The position numbers were made by a program, and so were the translations under genes. DNA of 28,827 bases from a virus, in IMG/VR virus record IMGVR_UViG_3300042564_005535, positions 1 to 28,827 of that record. One strand, 5' to 3'. Every line of letters starts with the position of its first letter. Positions within the stretch are counted from its first letter, which is position 1. Of the stretch, positions 3,575 to 24,198 are shown piece by piece. The notes beneath the pieces were generated by a model, which did no database searches, was not told where the DNA came from, and saw nothing but the letters and a program-made list of their open reading frames with translations.

Positions 3575-4144
3575 CTATTTTTGATCAGAATCGCTGATTT
3601 TTTTAATATATTCGTTCATGTCAGTTTTTATTTTTTCCATTTTTGTGACATGTTCCTTCTGTTTAGTATTTATATCAGTCATTATCTTAGTAATCTTAGC
3701 TGAGTTTTCACCCATTCGATTATTAATATCTTGAATTTTAGTATTAACAGAGAGTTTTGTACTAGGTTCCGTAGATAAACTTAACTCTTTTTGAAAGTCA
3801 TCTAACTTAACTTTATCTTCTGCTTTAGCTGTTTGTAAGTCATCTACCTCTTTATGAAGTCTAGCGATTGTTAAATACTCAACTAAGAAAGGATTTCTAT
3901 CTTCACCACTCTGAACATCTGTTTTACCTAAAATATTTTCAAGTTCAGACTCTATTACCTCATTAGTTTTCTTTTTTTCAGTTTTAACATAAACTTTGTC
4001 AATAAGAGGTTTCTTTTGAGTATATTCTTTGAATTGATCTTGAATAGTGTTCATCTTTTCTTTAGCCATCTTAACATCAGGTTGATCTGTTGGACTAACA
4101 TCAAAAGATTCTTTAAATTTCTTATATTTTACTAAATGTATCAT
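3575..4144 (-). CDS. Coiled-coil protein with capsid-targeting-like N-terminus
   Basis: A 189-residue protein of unknown function. It is highly charged and rich in Lys, Glu, Asp and Gln with few aromatics. Its long heptad-like stretches (about residues 90-185) suggest an extended coiled coil. The first residues, MIHLVKYKKFKESF, resemble the short N-terminal motif found on several other proteins in this window (hydrophobic residue 4, aromatic residue 7, then a Glu-Ser). Its ATG overlaps the stop of the upstream 1005-residue gene by four bases (ATGA), which suggests translational coupling and a shared role. It sits just upstream of the sheath gene, which has its own promoter. A virion or prohead-core protein is possible, but no family was recognised. 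Confidence 0.7.
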   Translation of the reverse strand: MIHLVKYKKFKESFDVSPTDQPDVKMAKEKMNTIQDQFKEYTQKKPLIDKVYVKTEKKKTNEVIESELENILGKTDVQSGEDRNPFLVEYLTIARLHKEVDDLQTAKAEDKVKLDDFQKELSLSTEPSTKLSVNTKIQDINNRMGENSAKITKIMTDINTKQKEHVTKMEKIKTDMNEYIKKISDSDQK

Positions 4145-7100
4145 CCGATTTTAACATTAGCTATTTCTTTCATATTAGCGATATCATCATATCCACCATA
4201 TTTAGATACAACAGTTTTAACTTGGTCTAATCTTTTAACACTAGCTCTATCTTTAGTCGCTTTATCAATTACATGATAAGGTTCTATAATATTCCAGGAT
4301 AAACTTTCTTCTTTCACATCATAGTTTTTATGGTTTATATCATCAGGTACCTTACTAAGCTTCTGCGGATCATCTCTTTCTAACCAAATAGATTTAATAC
4401 TACCAGATAACGCACTAGTAAACTTACCATCTTTACTATACAAATCAGATGCTTTAATTTTAGTAGCCTTAATAAGATAAGGTGAATTATAAGTATCTTT
4501 TTCTGTAGTAACATTAATAAGACTAGTAGATGTATCTAACTTAACACTTCTACCAGTGTTACCAGCTATTAAATATTCTTTTAAATAAAATGCACTTTGA
4601 CAAAATGAAACATAGAAAATATCACTTCTATAATCTTGTATATAAAAATAATACTTAATAGTAGATCCACTTTCTTTAACAGTTAAAGCGAAAAATGTAC
4701 CTTTTAAATCACTATAGCTTGAATAAGCTATAGGATTTCTACCAGTATCCAATGCAACTTGCATTGGATCAGGTGTATTACTTTGATTATTCTGTCTTTC
4801 AGACTCTTCACCAAAGTGTGTATTTTTAGCATCATCTCCATCTTTATATCCAAAATATTTATCTAAAAACTTAGCTTGTAAGCCACCGTCTTTACCATCA
4901 ACTTTTCCATAAAACTCATCACCATTAAGCATGTCAGTCATAAACTTTCTTAAATTAGATCCAGCCTTATCAATATACTCATCACCTACCTTTAATCTAG
5001 TTTTAACATTAAATATTTTTTGATATTGTTTATCCTTTAAGATATCCAAAACATTACTTTCCCAAGTGTCAAATAATCTATTATTTCTATAAGGACCACC
5101 ACTTTCTCCAGCATTTTTAGGACTACCATTACCAAAACAAGTATATTCCATAAATATTCTATTAGTAACTTGTCCATCAGATCTACCAGATCTGATAACT
5201 TGTGTTGTGTGTATTTTGTAAGCTCTATTAAAACATTTAACTATCTCTAATACAGGATCTAGACCCATAATAACAATTGCGTCTTTTTCAGAAGCTAATT
5301 TTTTTTCCAAATTCTCTTTTGTAACCTCAGCTTGTTGTTTTGTTAGAATATATTGTTGGAAATTTAACTTATTATTCCACCAATTAGTTAAATCTGTACC
5401 TAATTTTGTTCTATCTGTATATTTAGTAGCCTCATTTATAAGTGAGATAAATTTTGAATACTTAAATAATCTACTTTCTTGTTTTGTATCTTCTTCCTCA
5501 CCTTTGTTATCTTCCTCAGTACTTGTTTCATCAGTCGCCTTATTACTAACTTCTAAACAAGGTTTGAATGTATCATTAAATTTCTTCAATAAGTCTTTAG
5601 CAGTTTTAAGTTCTTTATCATCCGATATTTTCATAGGAAGTCCTAGATCACTATCTTCAACAACTCCATTTTTACCTTTTATTAAGTCATAAATTGATTT
5701 AATTCCAGCGGAAATAGCTGAATGGTCATTTAAAATATCAACCATTGATTCGTTAGAAACTCCAGATTTTTTTCTTATATCTTCGTATATTCTTTTTATC
5801 TGAGCATCTATTTTCAAAAACTCCGTTGGTGAATCTGATTGTAATTTAGTTGGATCATCATCAATATAATTACCATCAGCATCTACACTCGCGATATATT
5901 TAGTTATATTTTTTTCCAATTCTTCTTTACCTATTACTTTAGATAAAACACCCCAAAGATTTTTAGCGGTTGAAAATATCTTACCTTTAGAGTTCTCATC
6001 AGGTGTTGAAGAATTATCAACAGGAGTAGCAGGAACAGTATTTTCAAAAATAAAATATCTAAAATTCTGTTCTTCAATTCTCAAAGATTCTTTAACAAAC
6101 ATCTCAGCTTCTTTTCTAAGTCTTGCTCTAGTACCTTCTCCAGCATTTGTATTCTTATTCAACTTCTTTTGATCTTCTTGCCACTTAGCCAATAACTCTT
6201 TAGCTTTTTTATCAACTTTAACAGCATGTTCAGCCTCTTTTCTAAGTTTTGCTCTAGTACCCTCACCAGCGTTTGTATTTTTACCCAACTTCTTTTGTCC
6301 GTCTTGCCATATAGTTAACAACTCTTGGTATTTTTTATCAACCTCAGGATCTTTAATTGCAGTAGCGGGAGCCGTAGTAGGAGCTGAGGCAGTAGCACCA
6401 GGTGTACCTGACGCAGTAGCACCAGCACGAGCGACAGCTTGTTGTTGTTTAGCAATATTATTAAGTAACTTTTTAATTTGTAAAAGTAATCTCATTAATG
6501 CTACAAAGTTTTTTCTATAAGCATTCATAGCAGACGATTGTGAGGTTGCTGTTGTTGCGGTTGTCGTTGCTGTTGTTGCAGTTGTTGCAGTTGCGGAATC
6601 AAATTCAAGTCCATCAAGAAACTGTTTCCATTTTTTTAATTGACGTAAAATCTCATTTTTATTTTCAAACCCAGTACCCAAATAAGGAAGTGCTGTTGTT
6701 CCTTCTAACTTACCAATAGTATCATTTGTTAAATCTTTAATACTTTCTAATGTATAATATTCACTAGCTTTATCAGCGGTAGGAAAATCTATAACAGCTT
6801 GTTGTAAAACATCTAAATACTCAGATATTACAGCCTTATTAAGTTCGGCTTTATCAACCTCAGTCAAATCATTTAGATTTTCAGCTACTAATAAGTCATC
6901 CATAGCTGTTCTTAATCTAGCAACAACAGAACTTATTCTTTTAAGATTTGCTGCATTTTGAGCCTTTCTTATAATATTATGTAAAAAACGCCCAACTAAA
7001 GAGTCACCCCATTTAACCTCATTTCCAAGTGCACCAGAACCAGCAGTTGTTTCTTGTATTAACTTATTTACAGATACGTCTAATTTATTGTTAATTTCGA

Positions 7101-7158
7101 TAACTCTTCTTTCATTAAGTGATTTAAGATAGTTATCTCTAGAATTTAAATATTTCAT
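4141..7158 (-). CDS. Large putative virion protein (1005 aa), with internal 42-residue duplication
   Basis: Unknown function. I place the start at the ATG at 7158, not the TTG one codon earlier, because this gives MKYLNSRDNYLKSLNE, which fits the Met-Lys-x-hydrophobic tag seen on other proteins here. Visible features in order: a helical N-terminal region; an Ala/Thr low-complexity linker at about residues 192-206; a second Ala/Thr/Pro linker near 247-267; two tandem copies of a 42-residue helical module containing KNTNAGEGTRA (about residues 270-352); an acidic Glu/Asp-rich segment near 545-560; and a C-terminal part with mixed sheet content. Linkers, repeats, size and place beside the sheath gene suggest a structural or internal virion protein. 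The downstream gene overlaps by four bases. No catalytic motif was seen. Confidence 0.75.
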   Translation of the reverse strand: MKYLNSRDNYLKSLNERRVIEINNKLDVSVNKLIQETTAGSGALGNEVKWGDSLVGRFLHNIIRKAQNAANLKRISSVVARLRTAMDDLLVAENLNDLTEVDKAELNKAVISEYLDVLQQAVIDFPTADKASEYYTLESIKDLTNDTIGKLEGTTALPYLGTGFENKNEILRQLKKWKQFLDGLEFDSATATTATTATTTATTATSQSSAMNAYRKNFVALMRLLLQIKKLLNNIAKQQQAVARAGATASGTPGATASAPTTAPATAIKDPEVDKKYQELLTIWQDGQKKLGKNTNAGEGTRAKLRKEAEHAVKVDKKAKELLAKWQEDQKKLNKNTNAGEGTRARLRKEAEMFVKESLRIEEQNFRYFIFENTVPATPVDNSSTPDENSKGKIFSTAKNLWGVLSKVIGKEELEKNITKYIASVDADGNYIDDDPTKLQSDSPTEFLKIDAQIKRIYEDIRKKSGVSNESMVDILNDHSAISAGIKSIYDLIKGKNGVVEDSDLGLPMKISDDKELKTAKDLLKKFNDTFKPCLEVSNKATDETSTEEDNKGEEEDTKQESRLFKYSKFISLINEATKYTDRTKLGTDLTNWWNNKLNFQQYILTKQQAEVTKENLEKKLASEKDAIVIMGLDPVLEIVKCFNRAYKIHTTQVIRSGRSDGQVTNRIFMEYTCFGNGSPKNAGESGGPYRNNRLFDTWESNVLDILKDKQYQKIFNVKTRLKVGDEYIDKAGSNLRKFMTDMLNGDEFYGKVDGKDGGLQAKFLDKYFGYKDGDDAKNTHFGEESERQNNQSNTPDPMQVALDTGRNPIAYSSYSDLKGTFFALTVKESGSTIKYYFYIQDYRSDIFYVSFCQSAFYLKEYLIAGNTGRSVKLDTSTSLINVTTEKDTYNSPYLIKATKIKASDLYSKDGKFTSALSGSIKSIWLERDDPQKLSKVPDDINHKNYDVKEESLSWNIIEPYHVIDKATKDRASVKRLDQVKTVVSKYGGYDDIANMKEIANVKIG
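6115..6366 (-). repeat. Two tandem copies of a 126-bp coding repeat
   Basis: The segment starting tctaagtcttgctctag at 6115 recurs as tctaagttttgctctag at 6241, exactly 126 bases later, and much of the intervening sequence matches. It encodes a duplicated 42-residue module in the 1005-residue protein. Third-position differences show the duplication is not brand new. Confidence 0.75.
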
Positions 7159-7178
7159 CAAAAATGATATTATTTTTC

Positions 7179-7188
7179 TTATATATTA
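7179..7188 (-). promoter_or_regulatory. Putative late promoter of the 1005-aa gene
   Basis: On the minus strand this reads TAATATATAA, 20 bases before the ATG at 7158. It matches the core of the recurrent element but lacks the CTAAAA extension. Confidence 0.45.
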
Positions 7189-7271
7189 TTTTTCTTTCAC
7201 CGTTTTTTACTATATTTGTAATAGATAAAAATAGATTCTGAAAATAAATAAATAGTTTTATAGAAAATATT

Positions 7272-7301
7272 TTGACAATCAAAGAATTTTTGTTATATTT
7301 G
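7272..7301 (+). promoter_or_regulatory. Host-type (Bacteroidota sigma-A) promoter
   Basis: TTG at 7272-7274 and TATATTTG at 7294-7301 are separated by 19 bases, matching the TTG-N(17-23)-TAnnTTTG consensus known for Flavobacterium and Bacteroides. It lies 16 bases before the ATG of the UVR-motif gene. This is the best host-type promoter in the window and suggests early expression by unmodified host RNA polymerase. Confidence 0.7.
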
Positions 7302-7317
7302 TATAAATAAATCCACT

Positions 7318-7698
7318 ATGAAAAATATAATCTGCATTGACTTAACACAATATACTCTCACAGAACTAAAAGATGTATCTGAAGTTTACAACATTCCTTT
7401 CTTTTATTTAGAAGACTTGAAAGGTGAGCCAGGTGAAGAAGTTTACTTTGGAAAAATGTGGTTTGACACTTTGAACCAAGAAATTGTTGGTTATTCTTCA
7501 ATTCTAGATAAAGATAAATTAATCTTGTCTGAAAGTTACACTGACATTATCAGTGGTATCAAACCAGTTGAATTGAAAGTGGTTTCTATCGATGAATTAG
7601 AAATTATGTTGAATGAAGCAATTTCAAACGAAGATTACGAAGCGGCAACAGAAATCCGCGACAAAATCAACAAATTGAAAGTTGCAAAGGTTTCTTAA
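7318..7698 (+). CDS. Small protein with C-terminal UVR motif
   Basis: A 126-residue protein. Residues about 90-124 (DELEIMLNEAI, then NEDYEAATEIRDKINKLK) are a clear UVR motif, the helical-hairpin protein-interaction module of UvrB/UvrC that also occurs in McsA-like Clp partners and in bacterial bifunctional nucleases. The first 80 residues match nothing I recognise and contain no evident catalytic motif, so the UVR hairpin is the only functional clue. The gene stands alone between a host-type promoter and a strong terminator, which suggests separate, early expression. It may be an adaptor for a host Clp or repair complex, and the phage also encodes ClpS. The motif call is firm; the role is inferred. 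Confidence 0.75.
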   Translation: MKNIICIDLTQYTLTELKDVSEVYNIPFFYLEDLKGEPGEEVYFGKMWFDTLNQEIVGYSSILDKDKLILSESYTDIISGIKPVELKVVSIDELEIMLNEAISNEDYEAATEIRDKINKLKVAKVS

Positions 7699-7727
7699 AA
7701 AATAACGTGAATCTGAACAATATGTAA

Positions 7728-7757
7728 AAAACCGGGAGAAATCTCGGTTTTTATTTT
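7728..7757 (+). terminator. Rho-independent terminator with GAAA loop
   Basis: ACCGGGA-GAAA-TCTCGGT forms a 7-bp stem (one G-U pair) closed by a GNRA tetraloop, with A-tract before and T-tract after. It ends the UVR-gene transcript. Confidence 0.85.
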
Positions 7758-7837
7758 TTAAATATTTTTTTTTCTGGTTAATTTTAAAATTTTCTTAAAA
7801 AATCCATGTTTTACTAGTTTATACGAAAAAAAGTAGT

Positions 7838-7847
7838 AATATATAAA
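7838..7847 (+). promoter_or_regulatory. Putative late-type promoter element
   Basis: TAATATATAA ends 22 bases before the ATG of the Trp/Gly-repeat gene at 7870. It matches the core of the recurrent element. Confidence 0.45.
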
Positions 7848-7869
7848 AATGTAAACTTAAATTAATGAA

Positions 7870-8154
7870 ATGGATTTTATAGAACTAAAGTATAACGATA
7901 AGACTTATACCACACCAAACCAGATAATCGATATTCTTAAAAAAGAAAAACTCTACTGGTTAATCGACTCAGAAACCGATAAAGCAATTATTGAAATTAA
8001 AAACAATACTTTAATATGGCACGAAGGTATTTTCATGTCCGGAGATTGGAAATATGGAATTTTTAAAAACGGAGGATTTTATGGAACGTGGGAGAACGGA
8101 ATATGGGAAGACGGATATTTTGATGGAACTTGGATAAGCGGAATTAAAGCTTAA
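7870..8154 (+). CDS. Small protein with Trp/Gly (MORN-like) repeats
   Basis: A 94-residue protein of unknown function. The N-terminal half (about residues 1-50) is an ordinary mixed domain. The C-terminal half (about residues 51-92) is built from short repeats of the form G-x-W/F-x-x-G, for example GDWKYGIFKNGGFYGTW followed by ENGIWEDGYFDGTW. Such runs form repetitive beta-hairpin or beta-solenoid structures, as in MORN-like and pentapeptide-type repeats, and are often binding surfaces. The gene follows a terminator and a late-type promoter element and probably shares a transcript with the gene at 8177, since only 22 bases separate them. The repeats are plain in the sequence; the ligand is unknown. 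Confidence 0.75.
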   Translation: MDFIELKYNDKTYTTPNQIIDILKKEKLYWLIDSETDKAIIEIKNNTLIWHEGIFMSGDWKYGIFKNGGFYGTWENGIWEDGYFDGTWISGIKA

Positions 8155-8176
8155 TTAAAAAATAATCAATAAAACT

Positions 8177-8629: not shown

Positions 8630-8632
8630 TTA

Positions 8633-8666
8633 AAGAAACCTATCAATTTGATAGGTTTCTTTTTTT
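8633..8666 (+). terminator. Rho-independent terminator
   Basis: AAGAAACCTATC-AATTT-GATAGGTTTCTT gives a 12-bp perfect stem with a T-tract. The T-tract runs directly into the TATATATA element of the next gene, so terminator and next promoter abut. Confidence 0.85.
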
Positions 8667-8673
8667 ATATATA
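8666..8673 (+). promoter_or_regulatory. TATATATA element at short spacing
   Basis: TATATATA ends only 4 bases before the ATG at 8678. It matches the late-type core, but the spacing would put the transcription start at or inside the start codon. See the finding on short-spaced elements. Confidence 0.3.
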
Positions 8674-10434: not shown

Positions 10435-12567
10435 ATGGCTAAAGAGCTAATGGAAAAACAAATGGTCTTTACTACTAAGTTAGTAGATGAGGCAACAGAT
10501 AAGATAAATGATGGTATTGTTGTTAAACGATATCAAAATCCATGGTTGAAGAGTGAAGTAGGTCTTAGAAGACAAGGTGTTACTTTTAAGATGACTGCGG
10601 ATGAACAACAAGAGTATATTAGATGTGCGGTCGATATTCACTACTTTGTAGAAAAGTATTGTAAAGTAAAAAGAGAAGATGGTTCAGTAGGATCTATACT
10701 ACTAAGAGATTATCAGAAGGAAATACTTGATAATTTTGTTAATAGTAGATTTAATATATTAATGGCTTCTCGTCAAGTTGGTAAGACAATATCAGCGGCA
10801 ATTTTCATGTTACATAAAATACTATTTGATAACGATAAGAATATAATGATTGTTGCCAACAAAGGTGATACATCAGTAGAAATTGTTGATAAAATTAAAT
10901 CAATTTATTCATTACTGCCTTTCTTCTTAAAACCAGGTATTAAAACTTGGAATCAAAAATCATTAACATTTGAAAATGGTTGTAGAATTAAAACATCAGC
11001 TAGAACAAAGACTCCAGCAATTGGTTTTACGATTGACGTACTTTACTTAGATGAGTTTGCTCACATTCCATCTAATATCATCGAACCATACTACACGGCC
11101 GCCTTTCCAACGACAGCTGCGATACAAAACTCAAAGATTATTATCACATCTACACCAAATGGTATGAACTTATTCCATAAGTTACTTACAGATGCTGAAA
11201 GACCCGATGGTGATCCACAAAAGAATAACTATAAGGCGATGAGAGTTTACTGGTATCAAGTACCAGGTCGTTTTGTTAGTTATTTAAGATTAAATAATCA
11301 TAAACTATATGAATATGGAGTAACCAAGGAGGAGATATTTGATTTATGTAAAGATAAATGGGGAGGTAAGACTAAAGTAGAAATGGATTATAACTCCGAT
11401 TTACAAAAAGATATAATACACATCTATAATAATGAGTTCTGTTCAGATGATGAAGTTAAATCTTTAATGTTTATTGATTCAAAAGGATATGAAGTTCCAG
11501 TAAGAGCATTAGCAGAGGTAACAACTTGGAAAGAAGAGGCTATAAAAGATATTGGTGGTGAAGACGCATTTAACCAAGAGTATGGATTAAGATTTATTAA
11601 TGCAAGTAAATCACTTTTAAGTGAAGCAATAATTGATGAGTTACTGAAAAGTAAGAAAAATTATATATCAGAAGAAATATTTGAGTTTAATAAGTTGAAA
11701 TTTAGCTACAAAGACTTAAAATGGATTGACGATGATGATATTTTTATACCAATTAAAAGAAAAGAGTATAAATTTGTAATATCTGTCGATATATCAGAAG
11801 GACTGGGACAAGATTACTCAGTGATCAATATATTTAAGATAACAAATAAATCGAGAGAATTAATAGAATCTCAAAGAGCTTCTTATAAATCTATAGTTGA
11901 CTTTTTCAGATTAGAACAAGTTGGTATATTTAGAAGTAATTTAGTATCAGTTAAACAGCTGTCAGAATTTTTATATGTTTTAGCATTTGAGTATCTAAAT
12001 CCGGAAAATGTTAAAATTGTATTAGAGTTGAATAACTATGGAAATACTTTACTCGCCGAAATGCCTCACGTTTTAGAGGGAAATAATGAATATGGTTCTG
12101 CTATCTTTGCTAGATACAAACATAGAGTAGATGCAACTGAAGAAAAAGTAGGTCTAAAAGTAGGAGAAAATAAAAACTTAATGGTTAAGGATTACCAAGA
12201 CCTAATGTTATCAAAAGGATTCTCTATAAATAACGAAGAAACTATAAGAGAGATAACAACATTTGTTAAACATACAACAACATCAGGGAATACAAGATAC
12301 GCAGCTGATGTTGGACATGACGACTGTGTTATGACCATTGTGAATACAACTTCTATTTTTCCTAAAAATGAATATAAGGAAATGGTAGAAGAATGGGCCA
12401 ATAAAAATACTGATAAAGAATTATTAGCCTATATCAACCATTGTTTAAATAATATAGATTTTGTAGAAGGTGTAGATTATGGACAAGTTCTAAAAGTTAG
12501 AAAACAGTTTATGAACCGAAACAAAAATACTTATAAAAGTGGGGATTGGTTTGGTAGAAAGTTATGA
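10435..12567 (+). CDS. Terminase large subunit (gp17-like): packaging ATPase and nuclease
   Basis: Packaging motor that docks on the portal, pumps DNA into the prohead and cuts the concatemer. It is 710 residues, against 610 in T4. ATPase domain: Walker A SRQVGKT (112-118), Walker B VLYLDEF (202-208) with catalytic Glu207, and coupling motif TSTPNGM (238-244). C-terminal RNase H-like nuclease: Asp452 in SVDISEGLGQDYS, Glu531 in LELNNYGN, and Asp629-Asp630 in GHDDCVM, all intact. Its 3' end overlaps the stop of the convergent clpS gene by six bases. A late-type element lies 18 bases upstream. The antisense frame at 12192-12401 is a shadow. Confidence 0.95.
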   Translation: MAKELMEKQMVFTTKLVDEATDKINDGIVVKRYQNPWLKSEVGLRRQGVTFKMTADEQQEYIRCAVDIHYFVEKYCKVKREDGSVGSILLRDYQKEILDNFVNSRFNILMASRQVGKTISAAIFMLHKILFDNDKNIMIVANKGDTSVEIVDKIKSIYSLLPFFLKPGIKTWNQKSLTFENGCRIKTSARTKTPAIGFTIDVLYLDEFAHIPSNIIEPYYTAAFPTTAAIQNSKIIITSTPNGMNLFHKLLTDAERPDGDPQKNNYKAMRVYWYQVPGRFVSYLRLNNHKLYEYGVTKEEIFDLCKDKWGGKTKVEMDYNSDLQKDIIHIYNNEFCSDDEVKSLMFIDSKGYEVPVRALAEVTTWKEEAIKDIGGEDAFNQEYGLRFINASKSLLSEAIIDELLKSKKNYISEEIFEFNKLKFSYKDLKWIDDDDIFIPIKRKEYKFVISVDISEGLGQDYSVINIFKITNKSRELIESQRASYKSIVDFFRLEQVGIFRSNLVSVKQLSEFLYVLAFEYLNPENVKIVLELNNYGNTLLAEMPHVLEGNNEYGSAIFARYKHRVDATEEKVGLKVGENKNLMVKDYQDLMLSKGFSINNEETIREITTFVKHTTTSGNTRYAADVGHDDCVMTIVNTTSIFPKNEYKEMVEEWANKNTDKELLAYINHCLNNIDFVEGVDYGQVLKVRKQFMNRNKNTYKSGDWFGRKL

Positions 12568-14448: not shown

Positions 14449-15096
14449 ATGAAGCATATTAGAACATATGAAAATTATCGTGTTAAGAAGAACAGAGAAG
14501 AGATTATCAAAGAATCAGTTCTTCAAGTAAACGATATCTATAAAGTTAAAACTATGATTGATATTCCTCAATCTTTAATCAATGCTTATGTTAAGAAGGT
14601 AAAGGATACAACTGGTAAAAACTTACGTCAATTCTTTGGTGATGTTGATATCGCAGAAGAAATCGTTAAATATATTAACATGAACAACTTAGATGTTGAG
14701 AAAATACCTGGTGGAGCTATAATGGGCGGTGCCCAGGGTCAAGTACAAGGTCAGGGACAAGCTCAACCACAAGTACAAACTGAAGGTGAAGCTCAACCAC
14801 AAGCTCAAACTCAAGAGGTACCTCAAGCTCAACCACAAGCTCAACCAGAGGCTCAACCACAAGGACAAGCTCAACCACAAGCTCAAACTCAAGAAGCACC
14901 ACAAGGTGAATTCGAAGAACCACAAGCTCAAGGACAGGCTCAACCACAGGCTCAAGGAGAAGGACAAGCTCAACCACAAGGACAGGCTCAAGGACAAGCT
15001 CAAGGACAAGCTCAAGGACAAGCTCAAGGACAAGCTCAAGGTGAAGAAGAGGAAGAGGAAGAAACTGAAGAAGGTGAAGAAGAATTACCACTTTAA
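14449..15096 (+). CDS. Tagged Q/A/P-repeat protein with acidic tail
   Basis: A 215-residue protein of unknown function. The N-terminus MKHIRTYENY resembles the T4 capsid-targeting sequence. Residues 1-85 form a small, probably helical domain. Residues about 95-195 are low-complexity repeats built on QAQPQ, QGQA and QAQTQ, ending in four perfect QGQA copies. The C-terminus is a Glu-rich tail (EEEEEEETEEGEEELPL). Tag, disordered repeats and acidic tail recall prohead-core or scaffold proteins such as the acidic gp67 of T4, but no homology was seen. Three other frames are also open across the repeats, including a Ser-Leu antisense frame; they follow from the repeats and are not genes. It has its own late-type promoter. 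Confidence 0.8.
   Translation: MKHIRTYENYRVKKNREEIIKESVLQVNDIYKVKTMIDIPQSLINAYVKKVKDTTGKNLRQFFGDVDIAEEIVKYINMNNLDVEKIPGGAIMGGAQGQVQGQGQAQPQVQTEGEAQPQAQTQEVPQAQPQAQPEAQPQGQAQPQAQTQEAPQGEFEEPQAQGQAQPQAQGEGQAQPQGQAQGQAQGQAQGQAQGQAQGEEEEEEETEEGEEELPL
14989..15036 (+). repeat. 12-bp tandem repeat, four perfect copies
   Basis: CAAGGACAAGCT occurs four times head to tail inside a longer field of degenerate 6- and 12-bp repeats (about 14745-15045). The unit is a multiple of three, so copy-number change would lengthen or shorten the QGQA tract without shifting frame. Confidence 0.9.
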
Positions 15097-15123: not shown

Positions 15124-15420
15124 ATGAAAAAAGTAAACAGTTTTAGATTATTTGAAAGTATCAATTATGGATCTTGGATATCTTGTGATGAACAACTTCC
15201 AGATGAAAATGAATTTATTTTAGGATATTGTGGTCCTTATAATGAAATACAAAAATCCGCCCCACATTGTGATGTAGTTAGATTAACACGATTACAAACT
15301 ACAGGAGGGTCTTATTCATCTAATAATAAAAAAGATTATGAATGGAAAACTTTTGGTCCTAAAACATATTTTGGCCAAGAAATAAGTCACTGGATGCCAC
15401 TTCCACAAGTTCCAAATTAA
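15124..15420 (+). CDS. DUF551-type protein with tag-like N-terminus
   Basis: A 98-residue protein matching the small DUF551 family common in phages: WISCDEQLPDENEFILGY near the N-terminus (Trp18) and ISHWMPLPQVP at the C-terminus (residues 87-97) are the hallmark ends of the domain. Its function is unknown. The first 12 residues, MKKVNSFRLFES, precede the domain and fit the Met-Lys-x-hydrophobic ... aromatic ... Glu-Ser pattern shared by other proteins here. DUF551 proteins usually start close to the WI motif, so the 17-residue lead looks added. It follows the Q/A-repeat gene by 27 bases on the same transcript and is closed by a terminator. Confidence 0.8.
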   Translation: MKKVNSFRLFESINYGSWISCDEQLPDENEFILGYCGPYNEIQKSAPHCDVVRLTRLQTTGGSYSSNNKKDYEWKTFGPKTYFGQEISHWMPLPQVPN

Positions 15421-15473: not shown

Positions 15474-15474
15474 T

Positions 15475-15488: not shown

Positions 15489-16100
15489 ATGAAATTCATT
15501 AAAACATTTGAAAGTTATAATGCTGATACACTAATCATAATTGATGTACAGAAATCATTTAAGAAATTCTTTTCGGAGATGTATCTAAATGAGTTGAAAA
15601 AATATTGTAAAAACTTTCAAAGTGTTTATCAAATATGGGACAATCACGTCGATGGTAAGAACGTAGATAAAGATTATCTATATGATGACAATCCTGATAT
15701 CCCTGTTCACAAAGATCTTTATCACTTTCCAAATCAAAAAAAACTTATAGAAAAAAGATATAACTATGACGTTGATGCTGATTTCTATAAAAAGATTTTA
15801 GATAAAGATGTTTATGATAAAATCAGTAAAATGGAAGAAGAAAAATCATTAAAGAAAGGTGATATCTTCAATACTAAAGAAGGAACTATTATTACTTTTA
15901 TAAACAACAATCATGTTTGGTTCCATTGTCCTATCAAACTTTATGAATTATTAATTTCACTAAAAGGCAGAGAAGTTACAATTGTTGGAGGTGCTGACTC
16001 TGAATGTTTAGAAGATGTAGTTACAACTGCTGAAAGTATTGGAGTTAAAATTAAAAGAGATTATAAGTATATTTATACTGCTAGTAGTTGTCCTATTTAA
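15489..16100 (+). CDS. Isochorismatase-like cysteine hydrolase with tag-like N-terminus
   Basis: A 203-residue protein. The start is ATG 15489, since the upstream in-frame extension lies within a terminator hairpin. MKFIKTFESY is the clearest copy of the shared N-terminal tag. The body resembles the isochorismatase/nicotinamidase fold: TLIIIDVQKSF with catalytic Asp19, QIWDNHVDG in the position of the metal-binding Asp-x-His region, and VTIVGGADSECLEDVVTTA with the nucleophile candidate Cys173 followed by a helix, as in the family's G-x-x-T-x-x-C-V motif. The catalytic Lys was not placed. Substrate unknown; nicotinamidase is one option. If the tag is functional, the enzyme would be packaged in the head. 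It converges back-to-back with gp25. Confidence 0.7.
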   Translation: MKFIKTFESYNADTLIIIDVQKSFKKFFSEMYLNELKKYCKNFQSVYQIWDNHVDGKNVDKDYLYDDNPDIPVHKDLYHFPNQKKLIEKRYNYDVDADFYKKILDKDVYDKISKMEEEKSLKKGDIFNTKEGTIITFINNNHVWFHCPIKLYELLISLKGREVTIVGGADSECLEDVVTTAESIGVKIKRDYKYIYTASSCPI

Positions 16101-18780: not shown

Positions 18781-20064
18781 ATGAAGAATCTTAAACTCGA
18801 ATTGTTTAACTTCAAAAAAGACCTCTCCCTTGATCAAGAAGAGATCTCTGTAATCATAGAAGGACACATGAATGCTTGTAATGAGCACTCTGAAAAGACT
18901 ATAATCAACTCATTGAATGAGAGATTAAAGCCTTTCACATATGATAAAGAAGTAAAGAAGTTAATTGAAAGCCTTAATGATGATATGAGCAACTATGAGC
19001 TTTTATATGAATTAAAAAGTTTATATAATGTACTTAATTCACAAAATCAAGGTGAAATATACAGACAACCAATTAATGTTGTTTTACAAACAATTAATCT
19101 AGACTCAGATCAAGATAGAATGGCTAAGATTCTTAACGAATTGGCTATTTATGACTGGGTACCAGAAGTTAAATTATTTGTACACAATTTAACATCATCA
19201 CCAGAGAAAAGAACTAATCTTTTAAGTGGTGGTAAAGGCGAACCAATATTTACTATCGTTGAACAAGTTGAAGATGGCCATATTGCTTTAGTTAAAGATT
19301 CTTGGTTTTTATTAACAGAAAATTCAATTGAAAAAACATTATTAGAAAATAACATTAAAGATGAGGAATCATTAAGAACTCTTAGAACTTTAGAAACAGC
19401 TATGAAATATGCTACTATTTCTGAAGATAGAGTTAACTTTAGAATTTCTGAATATTTAACATTAGGTTTAGCAGTAAATGGTAAAGGTGGTATTTATATC
19501 AATGATGATGAGATGAATGAAGAAACTACATTAGAAAGTTTATTCTCTTCTCCTATCGTTCCTATCGTTAACAAAAACTTTTATCCAGTTTTATTAGAAG
19601 TATCTAAAAACTTAGATAAATTTGTTGAGTTAGATGTTGTTAAAAGAGTACAAAACTTAATCAACCCTTATTTAGAGTGTTTCGCATTCAACTATAAAAA
19701 CAGTACATTCTTATACAGATGTGATGAAAGATATGGTAACTCATTCTTCAAATACGAATCAGCTATTGAATTAGTGAACGAAGTAAGAAATGAACTTAAT
19801 TATGACTTAACTTATTTTTATGAAAATAAATTAGGCAAAGAAATAATTGTTAAAAGAAAACTTGAAGATAAAGAAAGAGAAATCACTTTGAAACTTGAAG
19901 ATGTTAACTTCAATATTGAAAAAGTTAAAGGTTCTATTCAAATGATTGGTGAATCTGAAGTGTTATCAACAGCTCTTAAAAACTTAGAGAAAAGAAAAAC
20001 TAACCTTGATGGTGAGTTACTAGGTGTTAAAGAACTTCAATATAACGAAAGAATTAAACTTTAA
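18781..20064 (+). CDS. Hypothetical protein (427 aa), probably late and well expressed
   Basis: No family recognised. It is acidic and mostly helical. The N-terminal region (about residues 1-110) looks all-helical, residues 150-260 include strand-rich segments (EPIFTIVEQVEDGHIALVKDS, cut here), and the C-terminal 80 residues are a Lys/Glu coiled coil (KLEDKEREITLKLEDVN and following). There is no signal peptide or membrane segment. It has its own late-type element and a strong terminator, standing as a single-gene transcript between the gp15-like and sigma genes. Codons for Leu (TTA), Val (GTT) and Ala (GCT) are used uniformly, hinting at strong expression. A structural or prohead-core protein is a guess from context. 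Confidence 0.75.
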   Translation: MKNLKLELFNFKKDLSLDQEEISVIIEGHMNACNEHSEKTIINSLNERLKPFTYDKEVKKLIESLNDDMSNYELLYELKSLYNVLNSQNQGEIYRQPINVVLQTINLDSDQDRMAKILNELAIYDWVPEVKLFVHNLTSSPEKRTNLLSGGKGEPIFTIVEQVEDGHIALVKDSWFLLTENSIEKTLLENNIKDEESLRTLRTLETAMKYATISEDRVNFRISEYLTLGLAVNGKGGIYINDDEMNEETTLESLFSSPIVPIVNKNFYPVLLEVSKNLDKFVELDVVKRVQNLINPYLECFAFNYKNSTFLYRCDERYGNSFFKYESAIELVNEVRNELNYDLTYFYENKLGKEIIVKRKLEDKEREITLKLEDVNFNIEKVKGSIQMIGESEVLSTALKNLEKRKTNLDGELLGVKELQYNERIKL

Positions 20065-20078
20065 TTTTAATTAGATAT

Positions 20079-20117
20079 TAAAAATCCTCAAAGAAATTTG
20101 AGGATTTTTTATTTTTA
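20079..20117 (+). terminator. Rho-independent terminator with GAAA loop
   Basis: AAAAATCCTCAAA-GAAA-TTTGAGGATTTTT: 13-bp perfect stem on a GNRA tetraloop with a T-tract, following the 427-residue protein gene. Confidence 0.9.
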
Positions 20118-20133
20118 AAACTTTTTTAGTTAA

Positions 20134-20144
20134 TTAATATATAA
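20134..20144 (+). promoter_or_regulatory. Late-type element before the gp55-like gene
   Basis: TTAATATATAA, 57 bases before the sigma ATG at 20202 and 1 base before a 14-codon upstream reading frame at 20146. If it acts as a -10 element, transcription would start at or after that upstream ATG. Confidence 0.45.
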
Positions 20145-20145
20145 C

Positions 20146-20190
20146 ATGAAAGCATTCCCAAAAAAGAGTTCAGTCTCTTACAAAAAATAA
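20146..20190 (+). other. 14-codon upstream reading frame, possible N-terminal part of the sigma factor
   Basis: ATG at 20146 encodes MKAFPKKSSVSYKK and stops at TAA 20188-20190, just after six A residues (20182-20187). Slipping back one base on this A run joins it in frame to the sigma gene through ATA AAT GCT AAA TTA ATG (20187-20204). It may be a leader peptide, a programmed -1 frameshift, a sequencing error in the A run, or untranslated leader. Confidence 0.35.
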
Positions 20191-20201
20191 ATGCTAAATT
20201 A

Positions 20202-20567
20202 ATGTACCTAAATAATAAAGATTTGTATGTAGAAGTAATAGTATCTAAAGCACAAGGAAAACTAACAAGAAACGCAGAAAAAATGTTAGAGCTACTAGCT
20301 AAAAAGACGATAAAAAAAATGAGATATTGGTCTAACGATGATAAGTTAGATTGTTACCAATCAGGATTATTAGATATGTTCCAAAACTGGTATAATTTCA
20401 ACGAAGATAAATCTGTTAACGCATTCGCATACTTTACAGAAGTATTTAAGAGAGGTATAGCAAAAGGTTATAACGAACTTTATAAGAAAAAAGGTGATAA
20501 CGACCACTTAATTAAATTAATCTCAATTGAAGGATCAAATGACGGAATGGGACTCCACTCACTCTAA
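20202..20567 (+). CDS. Late-transcription sigma factor (gp55-like)
   Basis: A 121-residue protein. It resembles T4 gp55, the small sigma-like protein that directs host RNA polymerase to late promoters: YLNNKDLYVEVIVSKAQGKLT at the N-terminus parallels T4 YVNNKELLQAII, and NFNEDKSVNAFAYFTEVFKRG (about residues 64-84) parallels the gp55/sigma region 2 helix NFDETKYKNPHAYITQACF. T4 gp55 is 185 residues. The C-terminal end here is shorter (GSNDGMGLHSL), and the N-terminus may be extended by frameshifting from 20146. It is consistent with the recurrent TTAATATATAT elements being its promoters. The assignment rests on motif similarity recalled from the family. Confidence 0.75.
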   Translation: MYLNNKDLYVEVIVSKAQGKLTRNAEKMLELLAKKTIKKMRYWSNDDKLDCYQSGLLDMFQNWYNFNEDKSVNAFAYFTEVFKRGIAKGYNELYKKKGDNDHLIKLISIEGSNDGMGLHSL

Positions 20568-20709
20568 TATCAATCTTAAAACATTTGATATAGTTATGAC
20601 ACCATCATTTGGTGCTAGCATACCAATCAAGTCTCGTTTCTCTTCTAAACAAAAAAGACGAAAGGAAAAAATTCAAAACATATTTAAAATAAAAAAACCA
20701 CTCATTTGA
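20539..20709 (+). CDS. Small basic protein overlapping the sigma gene's 3' end
   Basis: A 56-residue reading frame starting at ATG 20539 inside the sigma gene (29-base overlap, +1 frame) and running 142 bases past its stop to a TGA inside the terminator hairpin. The C-terminus is strongly basic (SSKQKRRKEKIQNIFKIKK), suggesting nucleic-acid binding. The space would otherwise be empty leader-less DNA before the terminator, and the codons look normal for this genome. It could be co-translated with the sigma factor. Alternatively it could be made as a +1 frameshift extension of it, or be fortuitous. No family recognised. Confidence 0.5.
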   Translation: MTEWDSTHSNINLKTFDIVMTPSFGASIPIKSRFSSKQKRRKEKIQNIFKIKKPLI

Positions 20710-20724
20710 GTGGTTTTTCTTTTA
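20692..20724. terminator. Bidirectional terminator between convergent genes
   Basis: AAAAACCACTC-ATTT-GAGTGGTTTTT has A- and T-tracts on both sides, so it can end the sigma transcript (plus) and the glutamine synthetase transcript (minus). Confidence 0.85.
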
Positions 20725-20733
20725 TCATTAATA

Positions 20734-21828
20734 TTATAATTGAGATTCAACTTCAGAATAAACTGTTTCTAACATTTTAAGTGAAACTTGATAAGGATCA
20801 CAGTTAGAAGCTGGTCTTCTATCCTCAAAATATCCTTTACCTTCAATAATAGCTTGTGCAGGTATTCTAATTGAAGTATCTCTTGTACTATACCCAAATG
20901 AGAAGTCATGAATACTTGATGTTTCGTGTTCTCCAGTCATTCTTTGGTCATTACCAAGTCCATAAACAGAGATATGGTCATTATGTCTTTCTTTTAACTT
21001 TTCCATAGTTTCTTCGATAAGTTTAAGACCACCTTCTTCTCTCATTTCTTTAGTTGAGAAGTTAGCGTGACAACCAGAACCATTCCAATCTCCTTTTAAT
21101 GGTTTAGGGTGTAAAGAAACATTAACATTATATTTCTCAGCAACTCTTTGTAATAAATATCTAGAAACCCATAATTGGTCAGAACCATTTAATGATTTAA
21201 CAGGACCAATTTGATATTCCCATTGACCCAACATTACTTCAGCATTGATACCAGATATATCTAATCCAATTTCAATACACATATTCATGTGTTCTTCAAC
21301 AATATCTCTACCAGTAACAGTGTCTGCTCCAATACCACAATAGTAATCTCCTTGAGGTCTTGGTGATAAACCATTTTGTTCAAATATTTCAGGTGTAAAA
21401 CCTAAAGGAATTCCAATTCCATCTCCAAATGGTCTTAATGGCTTATGTGTTAAAGTATATTCTTGTTCCCATCCAAACCAAGGTAGTTCAGATTTATCCA
21501 TATCTTCAGTAATTGATAATTCATTTACTTTTTGTAAAAGTGCTCTTCTATGATTACTTTCGTGTACAGAACTATCTGGATTAAGAACTTCACAAAAAAC
21601 TAATCTATCATTTTCACCTCTAAAAGGATCTCTTGATACAAAAACAGGTTTCAATAAACAATCTGTATTTTTTCCTCTTCCGGATTTAGCTTGTTTAGTT
21701 GAGCTACCATCAAAAGACCATACTGGATAATCTTCTGGTGACATACTGTCCACATTTTGAATTTTTGTTTTACTTCTTAGTTGTTGAGGTTGTGACCCAT
21801 CTAGCCAAATATACTCTAATTTCATCAT
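20734..21828 (-). CDS. Glutamine synthetase, type II (beta-grasp, eukaryotic-like)
   Basis: ATP-dependent ligation of ammonia to glutamate. It is 364 residues, the size of GSII (about 340-370) and much shorter than GSI or GSIII. The N-terminal beta-grasp domain has EYIWLDGS and PVWSFDGSSTKQA. The catalytic domain has PWFGWEQEYTL (metal-binding Glu residues), GINAEVMLGQWEYQIGP, HPKPLKGDWNGSGCHANFST, SIRIPAQ and GYFEDRRPASNCDPY, so the active site looks complete. Two ATGs are adjacent (21828 and 21825) and either could be used. It is transcribed alone, closed by a bidirectional terminator. A phage-borne GSII is an auxiliary metabolic gene, probably captured from a Bacteroidota or eukaryote-like source. 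Confidence 0.95.
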   Translation of the reverse strand: MMKLEYIWLDGSQPQQLRSKTKIQNVDSMSPEDYPVWSFDGSSTKQAKSGRGKNTDCLLKPVFVSRDPFRGENDRLVFCEVLNPDSSVHESNHRRALLQKVNELSITEDMDKSELPWFGWEQEYTLTHKPLRPFGDGIGIPLGFTPEIFEQNGLSPRPQGDYYCGIGADTVTGRDIVEEHMNMCIEIGLDISGINAEVMLGQWEYQIGPVKSLNGSDQLWVSRYLLQRVAEKYNVNVSLHPKPLKGDWNGSGCHANFSTKEMREEGGLKLIEETMEKLKERHNDHISVYGLGNDQRMTGEHETSSIHDFSFGYSTRDTSIRIPAQAIIEGKGYFEDRRPASNCDPYQVSLKMLETVYSEVESQL

Positions 21829-21903
21829 AATAGTTTTTTTTTATTTTATATCATTTATCAAACTTTGTTTATTATCAATAATATATTTAGTAAATTTTTT
21901 AAT

Positions 21904-22203
21904 ATGAATAAGGCAATTTTACAAATTTGGGAAGAATCAAGTATCGATAATAACATTTTACCGGTTGGTGGAACATTACATATAGATATTAAAGAAAGAA
22001 ATGAGTATGTTAATAAAATGTACGAAGGAAGAGACTTAAATCAAATTCCAAATAACTATGAGAGAATATCCGGAAGTGAAACAGAAGTATTAATTAATGA
22101 TTCAATCTTTAATATTCTTTTAGAAAGAAAGACTGTTATATTAGAAGAATATGAACTAAATAACTTAGTGAATATGAGTGAAATTATGATTGATAATGAT
22201 TGA
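21904..22203 (+). CDS. Hypothetical protein (99 aa)
   Basis: No family recognised. I prefer ATG 21904 (MNKAILQIWEESS) to an upstream in-frame start at 21865, because the upstream part reads through an A/T-rich intergenic region and gives an unlikely hydrophobic lead. The protein is acidic, with segments LHIDIKERNEYVNKMY and EYELNNLVNMSEIMIDND. No signal peptide, membrane helix or metal motif. Its last 8 bases overlap the start of the following membrane-protein gene, so the two are probably translationally coupled. The upstream region has no clear promoter of either class. Confidence 0.6.
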   Translation: MNKAILQIWEESSIDNNILPVGGTLHIDIKERNEYVNKMYEGRDLNQIPNNYERISGSETEVLINDSIFNILLERKTVILEEYELNNLVNMSEIMIDND

Positions 22204-22537
22204 TATTATTATATACACATTTTCTTTACTATTCATATGGAGTAATGTCTACTACGTCATCAATTATAATAGATTAGACAAAAGATTTGCTGAAAGAGAT
22301 AGAAATTCAAAAGTTGATTTAATTTACTATGTAACAAAAGTTCTTTTTTGGATATGGTTAGTAGTTGGTTTATTCACCCCGATAAAGTATATTTTTATGA
22401 TAATGATGGGAATAGGTTTGATAAGAATTCCAATGTATCATATAAGTAAAAATCTAACTTCAGTTTGGTTTAGATTAACACCTGTTTTTTATACTATATT
22501 AATGATACAAATTTTAATTGAGATATTTAAACATTAA
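22196..22537 (+). CDS. Small integral membrane protein
   Basis: A 113-residue protein. I use ATG 22196 (MIDIIIYTFSLLFIW), which overlaps the previous gene's stop by 8 bases. There are three hydrophobic segments: about residues 2-20 (DIIIYTFSLLFIWSNVYYV), 45-75 (VLFWIWLVVGLFTP and IFMIMMGIG) and 93-110 (PVFYTILMIQILIEIF), with short charged loops (NRLDKRFAERDRNSK). It belongs in the inner membrane. Function unknown; a holin is possible from size and topology, but nothing specific supports it. The 3' end overlaps the convergent gp4-like gene by 11 bases. Confidence 0.65.
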   Translation: MIDIIIYTFSLLFIWSNVYYVINYNRLDKRFAERDRNSKVDLIYYVTKVLFWIWLVVGLFTPIKYIFMIMMGIGLIRIPMYHISKNLTSVWFRLTPVFYTILMIQILIEIFKH

Positions 22538-23054
22538 ATTTGTTTAAGTGTTGTTCTGTTATTATTATGAATTCATATCCTTTTTTATTACACCAATTAA
22601 TCATAGTTTCCCATTTGTTTTTGTTTTTATAAGCCATTTTTAGGTCATACTCGAAACTTTTTAGTTTTTTAGCACCCTTTTCAGGAACACTTAACTTACC
22701 TTCATTAAGAGCGATAACCATATTATATTCTTTCATTGGTTTAACTTCAACAACTATTTGTTTTAGAGTACCATCACTTAATCTCATCTCATAATAAAAA
22801 TCAGGATAATAACAATGTTCTTTGATTTTAGAATCACCATTATTGAAATGTGTCATTTGATAAGGTATTTTTAAACACTCAGCTCCCCACTTTGTTATAG
22901 CTGGATTATAATCTAACCAGTGCATTATTTTCTTTTCCCACGAACTTCTAAAATAAACTCCACCTTGTGTATTTAATTTTATAACCTTATCTTTGTTATT
23001 AGGAACATAATTTCCCTGGTTATAGTTTTTATTGTTAGGTTTAGAATTTAACAT
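22527..23054 (-). CDS. Head completion protein / nuclease (gp4-like)
   Basis: A 175-residue protein that resembles T4 gp4 (gp50/gp65), needed to finish DNA-filled heads before tail joining. The aligned core is YFRSSWEKKIMHWLDYNPAI (about residues 34-53; T4 YRSNWEKFFFEWLDKNPEI), then WGAECLKIPY, YYPDFYYEM and IVVEVKP. Pro84-Asp85 ... Glu103-x-Lys105 is a PD-(D/E)XK nuclease signature, with Glu40 upstream as the possible extra ligand. The first 30 residues are an Asn/Lys-rich extension. The start is divergent from the next gene across 38 bases holding one shared TATATATA element. Assignment is strong from motif order. Confidence 0.88.
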   Translation of the reverse strand: MLNSKPNNKNYNQGNYVPNNKDKVIKLNTQGGVYFRSSWEKKIMHWLDYNPAITKWGAECLKIPYQMTHFNNGDSKIKEHCYYPDFYYEMRLSDGTLKQIVVEVKPMKEYNMVIALNEGKLSVPEKGAKKLKSFEYDLKMAYKNKNKWETMINWCNKKGYEFIIITEQHLNKFNV

Positions 23055-23066
23055 AACTTTTTTATT

Positions 23067-23077
23067 TTTATATATAA
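23067..23077. promoter_or_regulatory. Shared late-type element between divergent genes
   Basis: TTTATATATAA lies 15 bases before the ATG at 23093 and 12 bases before the opposite ATG at 23054. It is the only candidate promoter in the 38-base gap and is near-symmetric, as at the terminase pair. Confidence 0.4.
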
Positions 23078-23092
23078 ATAAAAGTTGAATCT

Positions 23093-23785
23093 ATGGGAGA
23101 ATTAGTTGAGAGAGTTAAATTAAATCTGTTAGTATATGGTGATGGACTTGTCGAAAACTTCCGAAATAACTCATTATACTTTTATGATAAATATCAAAAA
23201 TCTGATAATGAGGTAAAAAATGTAAAGGTGTCGGATGTTTATCCTGGTGGTTTTTATTTCTTTCATTATAAAGACGACTCAAATTGGATGAAATGGTCTC
23301 CAGTATTTATCGCTGGTTATAAAAAGTTTTCTAACCAAATAGTTTTTTTCGCGGTTAACTTCAACTTTATACCACTAGAAGTAAGAGCAATGATATTTGA
23401 CAAGTTTATAACTGAAGAAGATTTTACAAAAGATAAGTTTTTAAAAGTATCATATGAAGGAATGTATGAAGAATTAAAAAGATTAGGATTTGAATATGCA
23501 CTAATGGAATTTAACTCAATTCAAATAGTAGCGGTTCATAAAATTAAATTAGATATGATTCCTAGATTTATATATTCACAACACCCAAAGAATGTATATG
23601 ACCCTAAAAAGTTAATACAAATATGGGAAGCTAAAATAGAAACTAAAGATCAAAGACATAAAGAAATAATGATGTCTTCAATAGATGAATTTTATGATAT
23701 AAATAAAGAAATATCAGAAAAGTATAGTGTTCTTAACGACCACGTTAAAAGAATACAGAAAAGTTATAAAAAATATGGTAAATAA
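23093..23785 (+). CDS. Hypothetical protein (230 aa), possible virion or DNA-end protein
   Basis: Unknown function. The N-terminal part contains VYPGGFYFFHYKDD, then WMKWSPVFIAGYKKF and VNFNFIPLEVRAMIFD (about residues 49-105). This aromatic, strand-rich module has the flavour of phage head or tail completion proteins, but I cannot name the family with confidence. The C-terminal 60 residues are helical and basic (YSVLNDHVKRIQKSYKKYGK). It is divergent from the gp4-like gene, and in T4 the DNA-end protector gene 2 neighbours gene 4, so a gp2-like role is an option that context alone suggests. No signal peptide or membrane segment. Confidence 0.6.
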   Translation: MGELVERVKLNLLVYGDGLVENFRNNSLYFYDKYQKSDNEVKNVKVSDVYPGGFYFFHYKDDSNWMKWSPVFIAGYKKFSNQIVFFAVNFNFIPLEVRAMIFDKFITEEDFTKDKFLKVSYEGMYEELKRLGFEYALMEFNSIQIVAVHKIKLDMIPRFIYSQHPKNVYDPKKLIQIWEAKIETKDQRHKEIMMSSIDEFYDINKEISEKYSVLNDHVKRIQKSYKKYGK

Positions 23786-23790
23786 TAAAT

Positions 23791-23798
23791 AATATATA
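23791..23798 (+). promoter_or_regulatory. Late-type core element, short spacing
   Basis: AATATATA ends 4 bases before the ATG at 23803, overlapping the end of the previous gene's trailing sequence. Confidence 0.3.
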
Positions 23799-23802
23799 CA
23801 CT

Positions 23803-24198
23803 ATGAAAAATATGAAAAAATTTAACGAGTCTTGGTTTTCTAAAAAAAGTAACCCTGAAGAAATAACAGATATAACTCCAAGAGGAGTTTCAAGAACTTC
23901 TATGCCAGCAGAAAGAAATACATCATCTGGATTATCAGAGGAAGAATTAGAAGAGTTAAAAAGAAATAGTTCATCATCTAAGGTTGAAACTAAAGTTGAT
24001 ACTTATTTTATGCAAGAAATATCAGATAGACTTTTTGGCCCAGATTCTGAAGGTTATATACAAGCTATAAAAGAATTGAATCTAAAGTTCAGACCAAGAG
24101 AAGGAAGAACAGCTAATCAATTCTATGATCCATCTATATCAGATGAAAGAAGACATAAAGAAGATGAAATAAATAGAAATATATTAAAAGACGAGTAA
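23803..24198 (+). CDS. Small tagged protein upstream of the portal gene
   Basis: A 131-residue protein with no recognised family. MKNMKKFNES carries the shared tag (hydrophobic residue 4, Phe7, Glu-Ser). An in-frame ATG at 23812 would give MKKFNES, but the longer start keeps Phe at position 7 as in the other copies. The rest is hydrophilic and charged: a Ser/Thr/Arg-rich stretch, helical SEEELEELKRN, then IKELNLKFRPREGRTANQFY and an Arg/Glu-rich end. It is probably partly disordered. The stop codon lies in the loop of the following terminator. Its place beside the portal gene fits an internal head protein. Confidence 0.7.
   Translation: MKNMKKFNESWFSKKSNPEEITDITPRGVSRTSMPAERNTSSGLSEEELEELKRNSSSSKVETKVDTYFMQEISDRLFGPDSEGYIQAIKELNLKFRPREGRTANQFYDPSISDERRHKEDEINRNILKDE

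Follow-up and report, generated by a model that had tools for sequence, protein, structure and literature searches.

The internal proteins of phage T4 (IPI, IPII, IPIII and Alt) carry a short N-terminal capsid-targeting sequence (CTS) that is processed by the prohead protease gp21. In IPIII the first ten residues suffice for entry into the head, with targeting resting mainly on residues 4 and 7, processing on residues 8 and 10, and cleavage by gp21 falling after L/I-X-E (PMC9026906). IPI is made as 95 residues and matures to 76 (PMC3012670); its cut would fall at ITE19↓A, and therefore the T4 cut too can lie some way behind residue 7. In phage P1 the N-terminal 30 residues of DarB, one of a set of head-borne anti-restriction proteins, carry a reporter into the head (PMC9024508), and in SPN3US and phiKZ head and ejection proteins are cut after x-x-E by a gp21-like protease (PMC5694885; PMC9026906). 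The stretch considered here, 28,827 nucleotides (28.8 kb) forming the virus record IMGVR_UViG_3300042564_005535 and hereafter called the window, is a piece of a megaphage genome near those of LR745206 and LR756502. Six of its proteins open with a short N-terminal tag which, with a probability that we put at roughly 70%, is a cleavable capsid-targeting propeptide working like the T4 CTS.

Occurrence of the tag in megaphages

Open reading frames (ORFs) were called from the first ATG at a minimum of 50 amino acids (aa), overlaps of more than 25% being dropped, and because of these rules some called starts are wrong. The comparison comprised LR745206 (634,780 b; 924 ORFs), LR756502 (642,428 b; 962), LR756504 over 1 to 438,000 (640), parts of the 735 kb LR756501 (396), Sphingomonas phage PAU (290), Tenacibaculum phage PTm1 (302), T4 (256) and the window (36). 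When a position profile (tag call at a score >6) was trained on one of LR745206 and LR756502 and applied to the other, 123 starts of LR745206 were called tagged where 2.6 were expected, as were 149 of LR756502 (expected 1.7). Trained on both genomes, the profile called 35 ORFs in the LR756504 part (expected 0.5), one in PAU, and none in PTm1 or T4. The regular expression M[KR].[LIVMFY]..[FY] matched 93 ORFs of LR745206 (2.9 expected from internal Met residues, 6.0 from shuffles) and 134 of LR756502 (3.8 and 5.7, respectively), along with 47 in the LR756504 part (expected 1.4), 8 in the LR756501 part (2.3), 2 in PAU (1.0) and 4 in PTm1 (0.9). In T4, the positive control, it matched five ORFs, namely ipI, ipII, ipIII, 61.1 and one more. 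The lists obtained with this expression contain false positives, such as D12 methyltransferase and cytidylyltransferase starts. The comparison with shuffled starts that the initial annotation had proposed leaves the tag far above controls in both relatives, by profile and by expression alike.

A second, T4-like form of the tag, sought at ORF starts as [FYW]xx[FYL][ILVK]xE[SAGN], is enriched in all four megaphages, with 18 cases in the LR756501 part (expected 0.84), 14 in the LR756504 part (1.5), 13 in LR745206 (2.4) and 15 in LR756502 (1.6). The same search returned two T4 ORFs (expected 0.14), which are ipII and ipIII, and none in PAU or PTm1. Counting either form, 132 ORFs of LR745206 and 163 of LR756502 are tagged, or about one gene in seven, and tagged genes lie side by side in 48 and 70 adjacent pairs in the two genomes, compared with 15.4 and 23.3 in shuffles. 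A DNA pattern written for one subform found 62 stretches in IMG/VR, every one of which opens an ORF of at least 60 aa or runs off its contig (7 cases), as opposed to 5% of 303 control ATGs. In a genome collection of 84,980 species the pattern occurred once, beside a megaphage-like gene on a contig (L318, JAIOYD010000005.1) of a Rickettsiaceae metagenome-assembled genome. Since an ORF there is 57% identical to one of LR745206, this is probably a megaphage contig binned in error, and that subform is very nearly confined to virus contigs.

Anatomy of the tag

The consensus reads M-K-[Y/H]-[L/I]-[K/R]-x-[F/Y], followed by alternative ends: ES, NES, K[IL]FES or a longer stretch to INE. When ORFs are selected on residues 2-3 only (n = 277), information over positions 4-20 peaks at 7 (1.79 bits) and 4 (1.71 bits), with 5, 10 and 8 next in order. 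The leading two are the targeting positions of T4, an agreement in conservation. A Glu lies within residues 8-14 in 206 of 227 tagged ORFs found by the regular expression, the first such Glu sliding in register and sitting for the most part at position 8 (59 cases), 9 (65) or 11 (55). The residue that follows the first Glu is Ser in 87 of the 206 (42%; background 7.4%) and one of S/A/G/N in 138 (background 21%). A relaxed cleavage motif, [LIFMVY].E within residues 5-22, is present in 89% and 85% of tagged ORFs (n = 120 and 150) versus 40% and 36% of untagged ones.

The element is conserved as protein. Its codons largely follow genome usage and its Ser residues are written as both TCN and AGY, from which it follows that constraint acts on the protein. 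Among 427 reciprocal-best pairs between LR745206 and LR756502, 27 are tagged by score in both genomes, 17 in one and 383 in neither. Within the 27 pairs, identity is 0.61 over residues 2-8, 0.52 over the body and 0.26 over residues 13-19, the last value being lowered by the gap-free comparison. No strong shared element was found in the regions upstream of tagged genes.

Bodies behind the tag

The 230 proteins tagged by the regular expression fall into 194 body clusters (BLAST, E 1e-4), a number to be read as an upper bound because distant paralogues get split. One superfamily, recognized by a DIxxIxxELxDxGF-like region, accounts for 82 ORFs in LR745206 and LR756502 together, 70 of them tagged by score, and 200 of the 270 score-tagged ORFs lie outside it. 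Bodies checked singly include T4-type RNA ligase 1 (in both genomes), NUDIX, HNH, phage lysozyme and peptidase M15 proteins, as well as one protein with 2'-5' RNA ligase and RNase_T domains in which an Acb1 match fell below the cut-off. The majority of 30 tagged proteins chosen from LR745206 and LR756502 have no Pfam family, and none of 10 tagged bodies from IMG/VR gave a Pfam match over the cut-off. A family of 31 proteins of 327-772 aa, to which W01 (LR745206) 90898-92298 and L220:5343-6800 belong, has an SCM motif in 29 members and opens with the T4-like tag form in 7.

The same tag appears on unrelated bodies, and conserved proteins can acquire it or swap one form for another. RNA ligase 1 is tagged in LR745206, where it bears the T4-like form, and in LR756502, and is untagged in LR756504 and LR756501. 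In one pair of proteins with 84% identical bodies, one member starts with MIIKKYIKFINEEFDHL and its counterpart in the second genome with MKYLRTYEGFDHL, suggesting interchangeability of the two tag forms. Genes shared with T4, PAU or PTm1 are seldom tagged: among 53 such ORFs per genome, the tag occurs on one in LR745206 (RNA ligase) and on two in LR756502 (RNA ligase and lysozyme).

The tagged genes of the window

All six starts named in the initial annotation were recovered, and its residue counts are correct (Lys2 in five of six, a hydrophobic residue 4 in all, Phe/Tyr7 in five, Tyr/Phe/Ser10 in all). The profile built from LR745206 and LR756502 only picks exactly these six among the 36 window ORFs, none of the remainder scoring above 2. 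The regular expression matches just 3 of the 36, because the caller places the start of the 15489 gene farther upstream and because two of the six tags depart from the expression.

Behind the tag MKFIKTFESY (15489..15518, plus strand; score 16.4), the ORF 15489-16100 continues with a variable linker (NADT) and then with a conserved body. Its start Met is supported by orthologues that begin at the same residue. In an alignment of 14 sequences (the window and 13 others) Glu8 is invariant, positions 4 and 7 vary conservatively and residue classes are kept within the tag, while insertions and deletions fall immediately behind it, such that the linker varies in length. Residues 1-10 of the predicted model have a mean predicted local distance difference test score (pLDDT) of 28. 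The enzyme fold once proposed for this body found no backing, with no Pfam match at E 0.01 and no Foldseek match at E 0.001.

Upstream, MKHIRTYENY (14449..14478, plus strand; score 17.1) opens a protein of 215 aa that contains a region of Gln-rich repeats. The tag is conserved as MKHIR[TQ][FY]E[SN][YF] in 11 of 12 matched loci with a readable start, the exception being LR756501; two further loci are truncated. The body (14729-15093) is a Gln/Pro/Ala/Gly-rich repeat (QAQPQGQ...) with acidic residues at its end. Between these two genes, MKKVNSFRLFES (15124..15159, plus strand; score 10.9) precedes a protein whose assignment to DUF551 was confirmed (PF04448, E 2e-10). Its LFE↓S fits a T4-type L/I-x-E site, and among the loci searched the protein was matched solely in L003 and L005.

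Directly upstream of the portal gene, the tag MKNMKKFNES (23803..23832, plus strand; score 13.0) is present in the near relatives L002-L014 and L032 and takes the form MIKNWDKFNEG in L040/L041; other orthologues begin near the body, for example with MKIFKKKK (L047) or MGIFRKKK (L065). On the minus strand, MIHLVKYKKFKES (4106..4144; score 12.0) opens a 189-aa protein (3575-4144) and aligns by eye, gap-free, with the tagged orthologues MKYLKKYKIFLEA and MKYLKGYSSFNED. The weakest of the six is the degenerate tag MKYLNSRDNYLKSLNE (7111..7158, minus strand; score 5.2) of a 1005-aa protein (4141-7158). It has Arg at position 7, as do the two orthologues MKYLSKRSEYLK and MRYLKQREEFIR; the orthologous tags read MKYLSKRSEYLKSAKYKVINES and MRYLKQREEFIRNNKYSLIKEE.

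The terminase large subunit (10435..12567, plus strand) is 79.7% identical to that of LR745206 and 75.5% to that of LR756502, with 45% identity to LR756504, 43% to LR756501 and about 32-34% to Tenacibaculum phages and PAU. This marker places the window among the >630 kb megaphages. In 2020 the largest complete genomes of phages were of 634, 636, 642 and 735 kb and belonged to a 'Mahaphage' clade whose predicted hosts are Bacteroidetes (PMC7162821; PMC9723777), and megaphages were not yet in culture as of 2021 (PMC9723777). The portal protein (24273..25976, plus strand; phrog_213, E 5.9e-59) marks the head-gene region. Its C-terminus (~25750-25970) is a low-complexity GGAPAEGG repeat similar to the body repeat of the 14449 protein. 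In the same region an ORF at 20734-21828 is glutamine synthetase-like by eye, and both relatives have a similar-looking ORF at the corresponding position.

Protease, scaffold and capsid genes

In LR745206 and LR756502 the portal gene is followed by other genes and then by a protease-scaffold fusion and the major capsid protein, the latter two lying outside the window. A gp23-like capsid gene scores over the cut-off in 12 of 12 records, and all 12 also have a match to the prohead protease family PF03420 at E <= 0.01, the T4 control passing the cut-off. The megaphage protease gene sits near the capsid gene. T4 gp21 shares its motifs NRNxRxY, GExxHP and SSR, whose His and Ser we take to be catalytic, with the proteases of all four megaphages and with 28 of 28 distinct protease ORFs from IMG/VR; the PAU protease has only GExxHP. 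A second prohead-protease family match in LR756501 (W04, 11386-11787) lies far from the capsid gene and falls below the cut-off (E 1.1e-5).

The megaphage protease ORF is fused to repeats of the type YSEYIAEN, with 10-15 copies in the four megaphages, 10-14 in each of the 28 IMG/VR ORFs and none in PTm1. Residues 236-450 of the fusion are predicted by AlphaFold to form a single long helix, and the repeat resembles T4 YQEFIAEA. In the capsid proteins a boundary [IM][NH]E↓N lies near residue 44 in 29 of 30 rows, and is not found in PAU. T4 gp23, the propeptide of which has 65 residues (PMC5694885), reads FLTE↓A at residue 65 in the same region, as matched by eye and unaligned.

Two small tagged proteins carry the N-terminal capsid arm (GMGxV..AQP...GSGD) that follows the capsid boundary, and their tags close with FIE↓N or FNE↓D at the point where INE↓N closes the capsid propeptide. 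These are proteins of 84 aa (W01, LR745206, 93266-93520) and 81 aa (W02, LR756502, 80294-80539), with SGMGAVxxAQPxxLxGTTG..GSGD or near it behind the tag. Two more proteins, of 166 and 171 aa, have the capsid arm behind an ILE↓T or ILE↓D site. A regular expression for the arm matched 42 of 5678 proteins read forwards and none read in reverse.

Interpretation and alternatives

Taken together, the tag, its modularity, its conservation at the protein level and its scarcity among genes with counterparts in T4, PAU and PTm1, along with a cleavage-like end, a conserved boundary in the capsid protein and the protease-scaffold repeats, are features apparent in the sequences themselves. What we infer is that tagged proteins dock, are cut, packaged and injected, and what the cargo does. 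Under this proposal, new accessory proteins would bear MK[YH][LI][KR]x[FY]... at the N-terminus, and the hydrophobic residue 4 and aromatic residue 7 would dock onto the core of the prohead, which in these phages is probably formed by the long helical repeat attached to the protease. Once the shell is assembled, the protease would cut behind the terminal Glu of the tag (hydrophobic-x-E↓S/N/A), release the body and break up the core. The released proteins would stay beside the packaged DNA and be delivered along with it; once inside, many of them would act on host defence, RNA and metabolism.

Several observations weigh against a T4-like propeptide. The megaphage profile scores the starts of T4 ipI, ipII, ipIII and 61.1 low (-5.8 to 0.3), no similarity to the T4 CTS was seen at profile level, and only looser regular expressions match T4. 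Several kinds of sequence evidence speak well for a modular, protein-level N-terminal address resembling a prohead propeptide, as initially suggested; presence in the head, cutting and injection are predictions, and the low T4 scores do not bear out descent from the T4 sequence itself. The strict T4 site, [LI].E within residues 5-22, is present in only about half of the tagged ORFs (46% and 52%, compared with 24% and 22% for untagged ones), so that cleavage specificity would need to be looser here. Common-form tags are few in the LR756501 part (6 of 396 by the profile trained on both genomes; expected 0.4). The PF03420 match is below the Pfam cut-off in 10 of the 12 records, only PAU and PTm1 passing; the AlphaFold prediction of the protease domain is poor and too uncertain for a fold search, and a PDB profile search with the protease returned no matches up to E 1. 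In T4 the scaffold-repeat profile gives ipIII and ipII low scores and ranks of just 3rd and 4th among 256, and it hardly registers the common form of the tag. Lastly, a phage lysozyme (LR756502) and a peptidase M15 (LR745206), both matched over the cut-off, are tagged and make odd, unexplained head cargo, and the T4 late-promoter octamer is not enriched upstream of tagged genes.

The last two of these points would suit a tag that sorts proteins to some other place, such as a phage-made compartment or a membrane site of head assembly, where they stay uncut and unpackaged; the two tagged enzymes are predicted endolysins, and nothing physical ties the tag to the virion. We consider this unlikely, though worth keeping in view: an uncut signal gives no obvious reason for the sliding Glu-Ser end, the matching capsid boundary and the capsid-arm proteins, and the key tag positions equal the targeting positions of T4. 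Shared ancestry only, in which one paralogous family spread and kept its first residues, draws on the DIxxIxxELxDxGF superfamily, with its 70 score-tagged members among 82. It is rendered improbable by the tagged majority outside that superfamily, by the 194 body clusters (an upper bound), by bodies that match RNA ligase, NUDIX, HNH, 2'-5' RNA ligase with RNase_T, lysozyme, peptidase M15 and DUF551, and by the same body being found with and without a tag.

A signal in the nucleic acid, that is, a translation-start or promoter element that incidentally encodes the tag residues, has in its favour that Leu4 favours TTA/CTA beyond the genome preference. Codons in the tag are mostly genome-like, with Ser as TCN and AGY, upstream regions share no strong element and orthologues retain residue classes, which makes this account very improbable. 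Chance has a negligible probability. The genomes are AT-rich and have many MK starts, yet composition of this kind does not explain the set, in view of the 93 and 134 matches against 2.9 to 6.0 in the internal-Met and shuffle controls and of the 62 of 62 IMG/VR pattern stretches that open an ORF or run off the contig, compared with 5% of control ATGs.

The cleavable capsid-targeting propeptide can also be given a bolder form, which we hold only tentatively and regard as rather doubtful. Phages of >600 kb would carry a head-borne arsenal of >100 different proteins, injected before phage gene expression; a single evolvable address would open the cargo to any gene and would imitate a repeat of the self-cutting protease-scaffold (YSEYIAEN), with the result that cargo assembles together with the core and is released by that same cleavage. 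Mimicry of the repeat is kept for this version only, because few megaphage tags resemble the repeat. If the propeptide reading is true, it would explain how such phages could face host defences at once on entry and would open a large set of proteins now annotated as hypothetical to testing as first-strike effectors. The tag would moreover offer an address to try out on reporter proteins, and it would become testable whether delivered proteins drive gene accretion in megaphages.

Comparison with known systems

In the literature searched, which comprised open-licence papers only, no description of this megaphage tag was found. The T4 CTS is likewise short, N-terminal and borne on unrelated bodies; it too has its key residues at 4 and 7, with a hydrophobic-x-E site behind them that most megaphage tags match in relaxed form, and the megaphages have both a gp23-type capsid and a gp21-like protease. 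In contrast to T4, the megaphage consensus is MK[YH][LI][KR]x[FY], often with Ser after the Glu, the protease is fused to a long repeat helix, and packaging is predicted. Phage P1 has few Dar proteins, and DarB is likened to the tagged proteins by its published description rather than by sequence (PMC9024508). In SPN3US and phiKZ several propeptides exceed 100 residues and the motif is A-x-E or S/A-x-E (PMC5694885; PMC9026906). The new element is one of scale: 132 and 163 tagged ORFs, in either form, are found in two genomes, and where a single regular expression finds five in T4 it finds 93 and 134 in the megaphages, in which a T4-type propeptide appears to have been expanded roughly twentyfold.

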